Source of the DNA: a bacterium
GTDB lineage: Bacteria > Myxococcota_A > Bradymonadia > UBA7976 > UBA1532
Reading direction: 5' to 3'
DNA: 64,000 nucleotides
Assembly (NCBI GenBank): GCA_030426085.1
Contig: JAUHYW010000037.1
Coordinates: 1 to 64,000, forward strand
The notes under the pieces were generated by a model. The model was given only the letters and a program-made list of their open reading frames with translations, ran no database searches and was not told where the DNA came from. Made by a program: the position numbers and the translations under genes. Shown in pieces: positions 1,732 to 8,272 of the stretch (position 1 is its first letter; each line of letters starts with the position of its first letter).

Positions 1732-3504
1732 GTGAACGGCGACGACTCCACCCCCGAGCCGACCGAGCGCCCCGAGCGCACGACCTCGATCCAGCTCGCC
1801 CGCCCCGGCGACCGGCTGCCCGGCACCCCCTATCGGCTCATCGAGAAGCTGGGCGGCGGGGGCATGGGCCAGGTCTTCCGGGCCGAGCACGTCGAGCTGG
1901 GCCGCGAGGTGGCGGTCAAGCTGCTCGCCCCGACCCTGGCCCACGACCCCAAGGCCATGGAGCGCCTGCGCCGCGAGGCCCGGGCCGCCGCCCGGCTGGG
2001 CAACCCCCACATCATCGACGTCTACGACCTGGGCATCACCGAGGACGGCCGGCCCTACGTGGTGATGAAGCTGGTGCCCGGCCGGGATCTCAAGGCGCTG
2101 GCCGACGCCGAGGCCCCGCTCGACCCGGCCCGGGTGGTGCGGCTGGTGCGCCAGATCGGCGACGCGCTGCGGGCGGCCCACGCGGCGGGGGTGGTGCACC
2201 GCGACCTCAAGCCGGAGAACGTGCTGGTCGAGCCCCGGGCCGACGGGGAGTCGGTGACCATCCTCGACTTCGGCATCGCCCAGAGCATCCAGGACACCGA
2301 CACCCGGCTGACCCGCGACGGGCAGATGATCGGGACCCCGGGCTACATGGCGCCCGAGCAGGCCCTGGCCCGCCCGCTCGACGGCCGGGCCGATCAGTAC
2401 GCGCTGGCGGTGATGACCTACGAGCTGCTGTCGGGCCGCTCGCCGTTCGACCGCCTCTCGCCGCTCCAGCTCATCGCGGCCCAGCTCACCGAGGCCCCGG
2501 CGCCGCTGGGCGACGTGATCGACCCCGCCCGGGTGCCCCCGGCGATGGTGGACGTCGTGATGCGCGGGCTGTCGAAGGAGCCCGACGCCCGCTTCCCCGA
2601 GATCGCCGACTTCGTCGACGCGCTGACCGCCGCCGCCGACGCCCCGCTGGCGGCGCCGGCACCCCCGCCGTCGAAGGCCCCGAGCCGCAGCCCCCTGCCC
2701 CTGATCATGCTCGTGGCGCTGGTGGGCGCCGCGGTGGGCGTGCTGGTGGTCGTGGGGACCGGGGGCGACGATCCGGCGGGCCCCGACGCCGGGGCGCCGG
2801 TGGTCGCCGTGGGTGAGACCGCGCCTCCGCCTCCGCTGCCCGCCGACGCCGGGCCCGACGCCGCGCCTGCGCCGACCGACGCGGCGGTGGCCGCCGACCC
2901 CGACGCCGCGCCGGCCCCCCGGATCGCCGCGAAGCCCCCCGCGCCCAAGCCGGCGCCGGTCAAGCGCCCCCCGAAGCCGAAGCCCCGCCCGATCCGCAGG
3001 CCGCCGGCGCCCGACCCCGAGCCCGAGGCGCCCGATCCGCCAGAGCCGGACGACGACCCCGAGCCCGAGGCGCCCGACGCCCCCGAGCCGGACGACGACC
3101 CCGAGCCCGAGGCCCCCGAGCCCGGCGCGGTGGCCGGGGTGACCCCGAAGCCGGCGCCCGACCCCCCGCCGCCCCCGCCTCCGGCCGCGCCGCCGGTGCT
3201 GCGCTTCGGCGGCCTGGACGTCGTCGGCGGCGCCAGCACCCGCACCATCCGGCGCACCGTCTCGGGCGGCTTCGACGACATCGAGGACTGCGTCGAGGGC
3301 AAGAGCGGGCTGACCGCCGGCCGCCGGGCCACGGTGCGCTTCGTCATCGACGCCGACGGCTTCTTCGGCGGCTTCGGCGGCGACGGCGACCCGGCCCTGG
3401 TCGAATGCGGCACCCGGGTCCTGCGGCGCATCAACCGGCTCACCCGCCGCCCGGACACCGGCGACATCCGGGTGTCGCTGCCCCTGCGCCTGGAGGCCCC
3501 GTGA
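1732..3504 (+). CDS. Transmembrane Ser/Thr protein kinase with AgmX-like C-terminal domain
   Basis: A 590-residue Hanks-type kinase. The glycine loop GGGGMGQVF is near residue 40, the catalytic lysine is K63 (AVKLL), the HRDLKPEN loop has D158, DFG has D179, and GTPGYMAPEQ is the activation-segment end, so it should be active. One membrane segment (about 322-344) separates the cytoplasmic kinase from a Pro/Glu/Asp-rich linker with PEPEAPDxPEPDDD repeats. The last 100 residues resemble the AgmX/PglI C-terminal domain of Myxococcus motility proteins, with the conserved Cys and FVIDADG pattern. The GTG start at 1732 follows a possible -10 box by 6 bases. The stop overlaps the next gene (GTGA), tying the kinase to the heme-motif cluster downstream. 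Confidence 0.9.
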   Translation: MNGDDSTPEPTERPERTTSIQLARPGDRLPGTPYRLIEKLGGGGMGQVFRAEHVELGREVAVKLLAPTLAHDPKAMERLRREARAAARLGNPHIIDVYDLGITEDGRPYVVMKLVPGRDLKALADAEAPLDPARVVRLVRQIGDALRAAHAAGVVHRDLKPENVLVEPRADGESVTILDFGIAQSIQDTDTRLTRDGQMIGTPGYMAPEQALARPLDGRADQYALAVMTYELLSGRSPFDRLSPLQLIAAQLTEAPAPLGDVIDPARVPPAMVDVVMRGLSKEPDARFPEIADFVDALTAAADAPLAAPAPPPSKAPSRSPLPLIMLVALVGAAVGVLVVVGTGGDDPAGPDAGAPVVAVGETAPPPPLPADAGPDAAPAPTDAAVAADPDAAPAPRIAAKPPAPKPAPVKRPPKPKPRPIRRPPAPDPEPEAPDPPEPDDDPEPEAPDAPEPDDDPEPEAPEPGAVAGVTPKPAPDPPPPPPPAAPPVLRFGGLDVVGGASTRTIRRTVSGGFDDIEDCVEGKSGLTAGRRATVRFVIDADGFFGGFGGDGDPALVECGTRVLRRINRLTRRPDTGDIRVSLPLRLEAP

Positions 3505-3995
3505 TCCGCTGGCTCTCGCTCGGCGCCGCCCTGCTGCTGCTCGGCTGCGGGGTGCTCGACCCCGAGGTGGGCCCCGAGCGGGTCGGCGCGCCGGGCTTCG
3601 TGCCGCTCGAGGTGGACGGCGGCCCCGACGCGGACGGCGAGGTCGACGGGGGCGAGGCGTGCGACATCGTCGACAGCGACCCCGACACCGACGTGCGCTT
3701 CCCCGACATCACCAGCACGGTGATCGGGGGCTACTGCGGGTGCCACGTCGACGAGGGCGGCGTCGGGCGGACCATCGGCGGGCTCGACCTGCGGACCCAC
3801 GAGTCGGCCCTGCGCGGCGGGCGCCGGGGCGGGGCCGACGACATCGTGCCCGGCGACCCCTGCGCCAGCCACATCGTGGGCAAGATCACCGGCGCGCCGC
3901 CGTTCGGCTCGCCGATGCCGTTCAGCCGGGCCCCGCTGACCGCCGCGCACCAGCAGCTCATCATCGACTGGATCGCCGAAGGGGCCCGCCCATGA
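3501..3995 (+). CDS. Lipoprotein resembling planctomycete-type cytochrome c domain, with CXCH
   Basis: A 164-residue predicted lipoprotein: signal RWLSLGAALLLLGC with lipid-modifiable Cys16, then an acidic linker. Residues 70-164 follow the layout of small cytochrome c-like domains (PSCyt1 type): a CH motif, a GLDL segment, GDPCASHIVGKI, a GSPMPF segment with a possible Met ligand, and the closing helix IIDWIAEGARP. The heme motif is abnormal: Cys78-Gly-Cys80-His81, one residue between the cysteines instead of two. Either heme attaches atypically or this domain no longer binds heme. The gene is coupled to both neighbours (GTGA upstream, ATGA downstream) and very likely works with the monoheme lipoprotein and the porin that follow. 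Confidence 0.7.
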   Translation: MIRWLSLGAALLLLGCGVLDPEVGPERVGAPGFVPLEVDGGPDADGEVDGGEACDIVDSDPDTDVRFPDITSTVIGGYCGCHVDEGGVGRTIGGLDLRTHESALRGGRRGGADDIVPGDPCASHIVGKITGAPPFGSPMPFSRAPLTAAHQQLIIDWIAEGARP

Positions 3996-4309
3996 GCCGG
4001 ATTCTGGCCGGAGCCGGGCTCCTCGTGGGCGCGGCGGCCCTGTTCGCCGCCTGCGGCGGGGCCCCCAACACCCTCGACGTCTCGGGCTACCCGCCCGAGA
4101 TGCAGGCGAAGTACCGCATCTTCGAGACCCGCTGCAGCCGATGCCACGGGCTCGAGCGCCCGATCCAGGCCCGGGTGGCCGAGGGCGGCTGGACGGCCTA
4201 CGTCCGGCGCATGGCCCGCCACCCCGGCGCGGGCATCGACGCCCGCGACCAGCGGGCGATCGCCGAGTTCCTCGAGTACCACCACCAGCGCCGGGAGGGC
4301 GGGCGATGA
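3992..4309 (+). CDS. Monoheme c-type cytochrome lipoprotein
   Basis: A 105-residue small cytochrome. The lipobox-like AAC puts the anchoring Cys at 21, followed by a short mature domain with one canonical heme site C48-S-R-C51-H52 (CSRCHG) and a possible axial Met74 in a conserved-looking VRRMARHPG segment. The closing helix AIAEFLEYHHQ matches small class I cytochromes. It should sit in the periplasm, lipid-anchored to a membrane, and carry single electrons. The ATG overlaps the upstream stop (ATGA), and its own stop overlaps the porin start, so its product is made together with the CXCH lipoprotein and the beta-barrel. Confidence 0.82.
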   Translation: MSRILAGAGLLVGAAALFAACGGAPNTLDVSGYPPEMQAKYRIFETRCSRCHGLERPIQARVAEGGWTAYVRRMARHPGAGIDARDQRAIAEFLEYHHQRREGGR

Positions 4310-5397
4310 TCGGGCTCCTGCTCGTGGCCGGCCTGCTCGGCGACGTCAACGTCGCCGGCAGCGTGTACCTGCACCACCCGACGCTGTTCGACGACGACGA
4401 GTCGGCCCTCGGCGCCACCATGAAGGGCATCAACGCCGAGGCGGCGCTCAAGGTGGTCGCCGACGTGGGGGACAGCGTCAGCGCCAGCGCCAAGATCTGT
4501 TACGGGTGCCACGACTTCACCGCCGACATGGCCTACGTCGACTGGTTCGTCGACGACGCGTTCAACGTGCGCTTCGGCCGGTTCCCGGTGCCTTTCGGCG
4601 AGTTCTACCTGCGCCACGACGCGGCCAACCACCGCTCGGCGACCAAGCCCCTGCCCTACGAGATGGGGCGCATGCTGCGCCGGGCCGAGTTCAACCTGGC
4701 GGTGGTGCCCGAGCCCTACCCCGACAACGGCATCGAGCTGTTCGGCACGTTCCGCGGCGAGTCGGCCGAGCTGGCGTACAACGCCTACGCCGTCTCGGGG
4801 CTCAAGGGCAGCGCGACGATGGCCGACCTCGACTTCATCCAGAGCCGGCAGATCTTCTACGCCGACAACAACCGGACCCCCACCGTGGGCGGGCGGCTGA
4901 CCCTGGCCTTCCCCCGGCTGCCGGCGCGGGCGTGGCGCTGGCTGTCCATCGGGGCGAGCGGCATGTGGGGCTATTACGACGAGGCCGACGAGCTCGACTT
5001 CCTGATGGTCGGGGTCGACGTCTACACCCGCATCGGCAGCCTCAACGTGCGGGGCGAGGCGATGTTCCGCCGCACCTCGATCCCCGACGAGCCGGAGCGC
5101 TTCCAGCAGCGGCTGCGCGAGCTGTTCGTGCAGCGGGAGGGCTTCTACGCCCAGGTGGACGGGCCGCTGTCGTCGCTGGTGGAGTGGCTGGCCCGGATCG
5201 ACGGCTTCCGCCGGGCGGGGCCGCTGCTGGTGGGCGCCGCGCTGCCCTCGACCGACTCGACCATCCTGCGGGGCACCGCCGGCCTGAACCTCGTGCCGAC
5301 CACCGGCATCAAGATGAAGCTGAACTACGAGTACTGGCGGTTCTCGGACTTCCCCGACGCGCACATGCTGCACACCGGCCTGGTGGGCACCTTCTGA
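4306..5397 (+). CDS. Outer-membrane beta-barrel (porin-like) with an internal CXXCH heme motif
   Basis: A 363-residue predicted outer-membrane protein: a short hydrophobic N-terminus (MIGLLLVAGLLGD), then alternating amphipathic strands rich in Tyr, Phe and Trp, ending LVGTF with a C-terminal aromatic as expected for barrel assembly. The segment FNVRFGRFPVPFGEF recalls phosphate-selective porin (Porin_O_P) proteins. Unusually it contains a canonical heme-c motif, C65-Y-G-C68-H69, between early strands. A fused heme and porin is the architecture of Cyc2-type iron oxidases, but here the heme site lies inside the barrel region and homology to Cyc2 is not established. It is coupled by overlap to the monoheme lipoprotein and followed by a hairpin, ending the transcription unit. 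Confidence 0.78.
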   Translation: MIGLLLVAGLLGDVNVAGSVYLHHPTLFDDDESALGATMKGINAEAALKVVADVGDSVSASAKICYGCHDFTADMAYVDWFVDDAFNVRFGRFPVPFGEFYLRHDAANHRSATKPLPYEMGRMLRRAEFNLAVVPEPYPDNGIELFGTFRGESAELAYNAYAVSGLKGSATMADLDFIQSRQIFYADNNRTPTVGGRLTLAFPRLPARAWRWLSIGASGMWGYYDEADELDFLMVGVDVYTRIGSLNVRGEAMFRRTSIPDEPERFQQRLRELFVQREGFYAQVDGPLSSLVEWLARIDGFRRAGPLLVGAALPSTDSTILRGTAGLNLVPTTGIKMKLNYEYWRFSDFPDAHMLHTGLVGTF

Positions 5398-5475: not shown

Positions 5476-5835
5476 GTGAGCGACGACGACAAGAAGCCGC
5501 CCCGCAGAGGCACCCGGCGCGACGAGCAGACCCAGGTGCTCACCCGGCGCCGCACGAAGCGGCCGCCGCTGTACCGGGTGATCTTCCACAACGACGACTA
5601 CACCACCCGCGACTTCGTGGTGACGGTGCTGATGCGGTACTTCCACAAGACCCACACCGAGGCCAACACCCTGATGCTGCACATCCACACCAAGGGCAAA
5701 GGCATCGCAGGGGTCTACACCTACGACGTCGCGCGCACCAAGCAGACCCGGGTCGAGGGGCTCGCGCGACAGTACGAGATGCCGCTCAAGCTGACCATCG
5801 AGCCCGAAGATGGCGGCCGAGAAGGGGACGGATGA
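5476..5835 (+). CDS. clpS: ATP-dependent Clp protease adaptor ClpS
   Basis: A 119-residue protein with the ClpS core: YRVIFHNDDYTT, the helix FVVTVLMRYFHKTHTEA, and HTKGKGIAGVYTYDVA. In the family these residues bind N-terminal destabilising residues (N-degrons) and deliver substrates to ClpAP. A charged, flexible N-terminal tail of about 30 residues (KKPPRRGTRRDE) precedes the core, as in other ClpS proteins. The GTG start at 5476 is chosen because GGAGG (5462-5466) lies the right distance upstream. It is followed by, and overlaps or nearly overlaps, clpA. Confidence 0.95.
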   Translation: MSDDDKKPPRRGTRRDEQTQVLTRRRTKRPPLYRVIFHNDDYTTRDFVVTVLMRYFHKTHTEANTLMLHIHTKGKGIAGVYTYDVARTKQTRVEGLARQYEMPLKLTIEPEDGGREGDG

Positions 5836-5839
5836 GCCC

Positions 5840-8272
<2,433 letters not shown>

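Follow-up and report, generated by a model that had tools for sequence, protein, structure and literature searches.

Four coupled genes for a CXXCH-bearing porin, two cytochrome-like lipoproteins and a Ser/Thr kinase: a candidate monohaem redox complex of the outer membrane in Myxococcota

To our knowledge, the described electron conduits of the outer membrane are either multihaem wires or the Cyc2 plug. In the Mtr/Mto/Pio systems, multihaem cytochromes are combined with a larger barrel, which has 26 strands in the PioB/MtoB models (PMC10654088), and the Pcc porin-cytochrome complexes also bring multihaem cytochromes together with a barrel (PMC4245776). In Cyc2, the haem belongs to an N-terminal domain that precedes the barrel and lies at its periplasmic opening, and the protein is recognized by the motif AXPXFAR[Q/K][T/Y] (PMC8406198). 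Furthermore, GM18_3465 of Geobacter sp. M18 has been predicted to be a porin-like 10-haem protein with its motifs in the loops of the barrel (PMC4245776), which is the nearest published idea that we found to the arrangement described here.

This arrangement consists of four coupled genes, in the order kinase, lipoprotein 1, lipoprotein 2 and barrel, all on the + strand at positions 1732-5397 of the window (i.e. the whole stretch of 64,000 nucleotides that was analysed). Their features are as follows.

1732..3504, + strand: Ser/Thr protein kinase, with kinase domain (Pkinase, E 5e-41), one TM segment, long Pro-rich periplasmic stalk and AgmX/PglI-like C-terminal domain
3196..3501, + strand: AgmX/TonB-like tail domain of the kinase, with two invariant Cys and a D-x-G motif (tail alignment)
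3501..3995, + strand: lipoprotein 1, PSCyt1-like; GTG start, lipobox LLGC
3735..3746, + strand: CGCH motif of lipoprotein 1 (C79-G-C81-H82), from the sequence
3992..4309, + strand: lipoprotein 2, predicted class-I-like monohaem cytochrome c; ATG start, lipobox FAAC
4133..4147, + strand: CSRCH haem motif of lipoprotein 2, from the sequence
4306..5397, + strand: predicted 16-stranded porin of 363 aa that carries CXXCH; ATG start
4498..4512, + strand: CYGCH of the barrel (C65-Y-G-C68-H69), end of strand 3/loop 2
4588..4719, + strand: loop 3 of the barrel, residues 95-138, with conserved KPLPYxMG (paralogue alignment and model)
4663..4665, + strand: codon of Met120, invariant candidate distal haem ligand

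The original prediction had singled out a lipoprotein with CXCH, a lipoprotein with CXXCH and a 363-residue barrel with CXXCH, encoded by three genes joined by 4-base overlaps; all of these motifs are read at the positions above, and both junctions, at 3992-3995 (lipoproteins 1 and 2) and 4306-4309 (lipoprotein 2 and barrel), are seen in the sequence. As a cluster, the three genes form a real association, which recurs in rearranged form, but an incomplete one, with the Ser/Thr kinase left out: a third 4-base overlap (GTGA, 3501-3504) couples the upstream kinase gene to lipoprotein 1. The start of the kinase was set at GTG 1732 by comparison with the related locus L016, and its TM segment and stalk were read from the sequence. 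Downstream of the barrel are ClpS (at 5476) and ClpA (at 5810), which do not seem to be part of the set, since the clusters (6 and 7) of relatives of genes beside ClpS/ClpA are found in only 5 of 70 related loci. A viral origin of the locus was discarded, there being no relatives in viral contigs and no PHROG match.

Cyc2 and Cyt572 resemble the barrel of the window in their single CXXCH haem site and in being 16-stranded outer-membrane porins that have been compared with phosphate porins. However, the CXXCH of the window's barrel comes after three strands (from residue 65), at loop 2, and two predicted cytochrome lipoproteins accompany it; the PXFAR[Q/K][T/Y] sequence was found upstream of the CXXCH in none of 62 barrel homologues, and motif position and missing signature together rule out membership of the Cyc2 family. 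With the Mtr/Mto/Pio and Pcc systems the window shares an outer-membrane barrel encoded beside c-type cytochromes, but its partners have one haem motif each and its barrel 16 strands; the absence of a multihaem partner from the window rules out assignment to the Mtr or Pcc type. Among the relatives examined, the only multihaem neighbours are those of locus L025 (five motifs) and of some Archangium-like loci (a two-haem partner). The MtrB/PioB barrel profile TIGR03509 had no match in the window's genome, and control genomes were likewise unmatched. GM18_3465 is one reported case of a single 21-segment protein with ten motifs in long loops, whereas the window's barrel has one motif, at a strand end, that is found family-wide. 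We place the gene set with the cytochrome-porin kind, but in no named family. It had been suggested at the outset that the combination matches no system that could be named, and a search of open-access full texts, with subscription papers outside it, returned no description of this gene set.

Conservation of the CXXCH of the barrel is, by sequence comparison, far beyond chance. A family-alignment scan of GTDB species genomes gave 70 loci which, with the window, make up 71 homologues; the motif is present in all of them (71/71), down to 34% identity, and its Cys pair is nearly always the sole Cys of the protein. One of the two scan patterns includes Met120, so that the invariance of this residue is partly built in there, while the CXXCH is in neither pattern. 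Nearly all of the 70 loci are from MAGs labelled Myxococcota or deltaproteobacteria, with one Latescibacterota and two Planctomycetota, and the carriers, largely Myxococcota, are numerous uncultured bacteria of soil, freshwater and groundwater. A profile search of 379 Myxococcota genomes, free of these patterns, gave 29 genomes with strong matches; of 23 loci fetched, L108 is a fragment without the motif region, leaving 22 that cover it, and the CXXCH is found in all (22/22) and a Met in the same loop in 21, L106 being unmatched by the simple loop pattern. The pattern-based and profile-based sets have some genomes in common. In neither set was there an orthologue without the motif, the retention of which had been proposed as a check on a haem-bearing porin. 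When the proteins of 58 related genomes were searched, eight close members (43-100% identity, the window's own barrel among them) stood apart from general Porin_O_P relatives, which formed a second tier at 26-31% identity; the CXXCH provides the only two Cys in 8/8 of the former, and the matched part is free of Cys in all seven general Porin_O_P paralogues (0/7). C65, C68, H69 and M120 are invariant across 62 aligned barrel sequences.

The AlphaFold2 model of the barrel, obtained with 62 sequences (mean pLDDT 92.7), has 16 strands, among them those at residues 13-27, 43-54, 58-66 (strand 3) and 72-81 (strand 4), with C65 among the last residues of strand 3 and C68-H69 within the short loop that leads into strand 4. 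In Foldseek the model groups with general porins, OprP having the top TM-score by query length (0.64) among the 50 matches listed. The Pfam profile Porin_O_P scores 26.2 bits (cut-off 20.9) over a short stretch of the window's protein and, at E 0.001, matches only 13 of 62 barrel homologues; searches of NCBIfam and of PDB sequences with the barrel gave no match. The fold and a weak profile match are what is shared with Porin_O_P (OprP/OprO), the compared members of which have a shorter loop 3 and no CXXCH. Over the 62 sequences, positions 58, 60, 62 and 64 of strand 3 are hydrophobic and 59, 61 and 63 polar, and C65 shares the polar, lumen-facing phase with S59, N/S61 and the nearly invariant K63. 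A lipid-facing Cys, named beforehand as one of the findings that would speak against a haem-bearing porin, is thus not what strand-3 hydropathy and the model give for C65. Loop 2 would be extracellular if strand 1 starts on the periplasmic side and runs upward, which is the orientation of known porins.

Compared with ordinary Porin_O_P paralogues, loop 3 has about 12 additional residues (33 versus 21, for those paralogues in which the landmarks were found), and it contains KPLPYxMG with the invariant Met; the CXXCH and the longer loop occur together, and both are missing from the ordinary paralogues. M120 is the best candidate for the distal haem ligand; H109 of the barrel is not invariant. 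The barrel appears to hold one haem inside its own lumen. The leader of the window's barrel (4306-4345) is only about 12 residues long and without positive charges (MIGLLLVAGLLG); family relatives have similarly short leaders, and L036 (= L008) has a normal one.

Profiles made for each of the lipoproteins found lipoprotein 1 in 54/71 loci and lipoprotein 2 in 54/71, and each of them in 26 of the 31 loci with wide flanks; one or both are undetected in some loci, of which only part are contig ends. The order is barrel-extra lipoprotein-lipoprotein 1-lipoprotein 2 in several Kofleriaceae-like loci and lipoprotein 1-barrel-lipoprotein 2 in L068 and L078, so that barrel and lipoproteins are kept together through rearrangement.

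Lipoprotein 1 barely exceeds the Pfam cut-off for PSCyt1 (22.5 bits, cut-off 22), and 37 of 50 homologues match this profile at E 0.01. Unlike the planctomycete PSCyt1 cytochromes c, the window protein is a short lipoprotein, with CXCH in place of the CXXCH expected of PSCyt1. About 40% of its homologues share this feature (22 of 54, while 31 have CXXCH). C81, H82 and M139 are invariant, and M139 is a candidate distal ligand by sequence. The CXCH had been remarked upon as unusual; it is odd indeed, but parsimony along the barrel tree requires no fewer than five switches between CXCH and CXXCH and, because of this repeated exchange, it is probably a working variant haem site. No paper describing a CXCH haem site turned up in a literature search, and an article on haem attachment consulted for this question does not refer to one; lipoprotein 1 would offer a natural test of whether such a motif can hold haem c. 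Its AlphaFold2 model (pLDDT 84.2) has a helix ahead of the motif and a C-terminal helix, like small cytochromes c, and gives weak matches in the PDB (best E 0.055), all of them to cytochromes, other haem proteins or their complexes. Lipoprotein 2 has its CXXCH and a conserved Met, with only sub-threshold cytochrome c matches in Pfam and NCBIfam.

Kinases are found beside the barrel (phmmer) in 29 of the 42 loci whose upstream sequence extends for 4.5 kb or more, and kinase density is 0.109/kb within 3 kb of the barrel versus 0.017/kb beyond, a sixfold enrichment. NF033768 (AgmX/PglI C-terminal) matches 10 of 14 aligned kinase tails (best 3.5e-9), the window's own tail being unmatched. Such a kinase is lacking in L083 (Planctomycetota), L072, L025 and Myxococcaceae-like loci; the core is therefore made up of the three proteins with haem motifs, to which the kinase has frequently been added in Myxococcota.

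As to function, we lean, if only slightly, towards an outer-membrane redox complex of the four coupled genes, with a haem in the porin, two relay cytochromes and a probable coupling to the kinase. A single haem c would be bound covalently within the lumen of the porin, close to its extracellular mouth, with thioether bonds to C65 and C68, H69 as the proximal ligand and M120, from loop 3, as the distal one. The two monohaem lipoproteins, anchored in the outer membrane, would exchange electrons with this haem and connect it, in either direction, with the periplasm and the respiratory chain. Such a complex would work in the manner of Cyc2, with a single haem on a porin, although at a different site. 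The potential of His/Met haems tends to be high, which fits transfer from a donor to an aerobic chain better than mineral reduction, and the window's genome encodes two subunits of haem-copper oxidases as well as proteins for cytochrome c assembly. Because of these aerobic oxidases and the usually high potential of such haems, the likely direction would be electron uptake, from a small donor able to enter the mouth of the barrel. In most Myxococcota, the kinase stalk could reach the outer membrane and tie the complex to the kinase, so that the state of the complex would probably be coupled to phosphorylation in the cytoplasm. The full chain, which would be a new class of outer-membrane electron device, i.e. 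a porin with a His/Met haem at its extracellular mouth, two monohaem lipoproteins (one of them with a natural CXCH haem site) and a kinase connected through a periplasm-spanning stalk, in which redox events at the surface control phosphorylation, is put forward only tentatively. Of the electron conduit originally envisaged, the recurrent association of three components stands; conduction across the membrane goes beyond the evidence, and the kinase raises sensing as a rival. The three haems, one per protein, may or may not be spaced so as to form a continuous path across the membrane.

Sensing or regulation has to be taken seriously as an alternative, given that the coupled set includes the Ser/Thr kinase and its periplasmic stalk. 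The haem barrel and the lipoproteins might form a trans-envelope sensor of an external redox compound, oxygen or NO, signalling to the kinase through its AgmX-like tail and stalk, as would agree with the 4-base coupling of the kinase gene, its position next to the barrel (29/42 loci) and the AgmX/PglI type of its tail (10/14 examples). We regard this as unlikely, if not lightly dismissed: core genes occur without the kinase in L083, L072, L025 and Myxococcaceae-like loci, and three separate cytochromes exceed the needs of a sensor.

The nature of the barrel site itself allows for another reading, in which CXXCH and Met bind copper or another soft metal, or the Cys form a disulfide, the barrel being a metal-uptake or gated porin with haem on the lipoproteins only. 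Two Cys, a His and a Met make a plausible Cu(I) site, and the haem of the barrel is a prediction, but the exact CXXCH spacing, the invariant His, the usual lack of any other Cys, the two cytochrome partners in the coupled set and the cytochrome c assembly proteins of the genome make this quite improbable. Least of all do we expect an ordinary solute porin lying beside unrelated cytochrome genes: the Porin_O_P family consists of solute porins, and the match to it is above cut-off, yet the motif and the longer loop 3 are conserved across phyla and the gene set is kept in changed orders, so that this reading is given hardly any weight.

What the gene set seems to encode is a minimal apparatus, so far undescribed, by which electrons are moved or sensed at the surface of the cell. 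If the redox complex is real, conduits would have a third design, a monohaem porin that is widespread and in many cases linked to a kinase; this would point to surface redox chemistry in many uncultured Myxococcota, and CXXCH plus KPLPYxMG in a porin would serve as a marker.

Some loci have further neighbours. In five relatives, a ferritin-like protein (Ferritin_2/DUF4439) is encoded directly downstream of the barrel (L017:2225-2863, L018:2363-3037, L019:2360-2995, L020:1890-2513 and L021:9083-9697), that of L017 being EncB-like with a twin-arginine-like lipoprotein leader; no such gene follows the window's barrel, where ClpS is found instead. This neighbour is a weak hint towards iron. An extra lipoprotein of about 330 aa (weak DUF7482), not found in the window, accompanies the barrel set in 19 loci, either upstream or directly after it (e.g. 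L022:6164-7111, L037:6391-7419 and L031:2045-3055). In L025, a protein with five CXXCH (6349-7284) lies upstream of a CX4CH version of lipoprotein 1 and the barrel, with no kinase nearby. In the Archangium-like loci L063, L070, L071 and L073, a two-haem version of lipoprotein 2 comes after the barrel and, beside it on the opposite strand, there is a protein with an end that by eye is sulfatase-modifying-factor-like; in three of these loci (L063, L071 and L073) this protein is a fusion with a kinase. Finally, the two-contig genome G356, with an estimated completeness of 100%, has the barrel and both lipoproteins, whereas in L120 (G200:C1:1572624-1573255), from a one-contig genome of that genus, the front of a lipoprotein 1 abuts the back of the barrel and the middle parts are missing, apparently as a decayed copy of the gene set.
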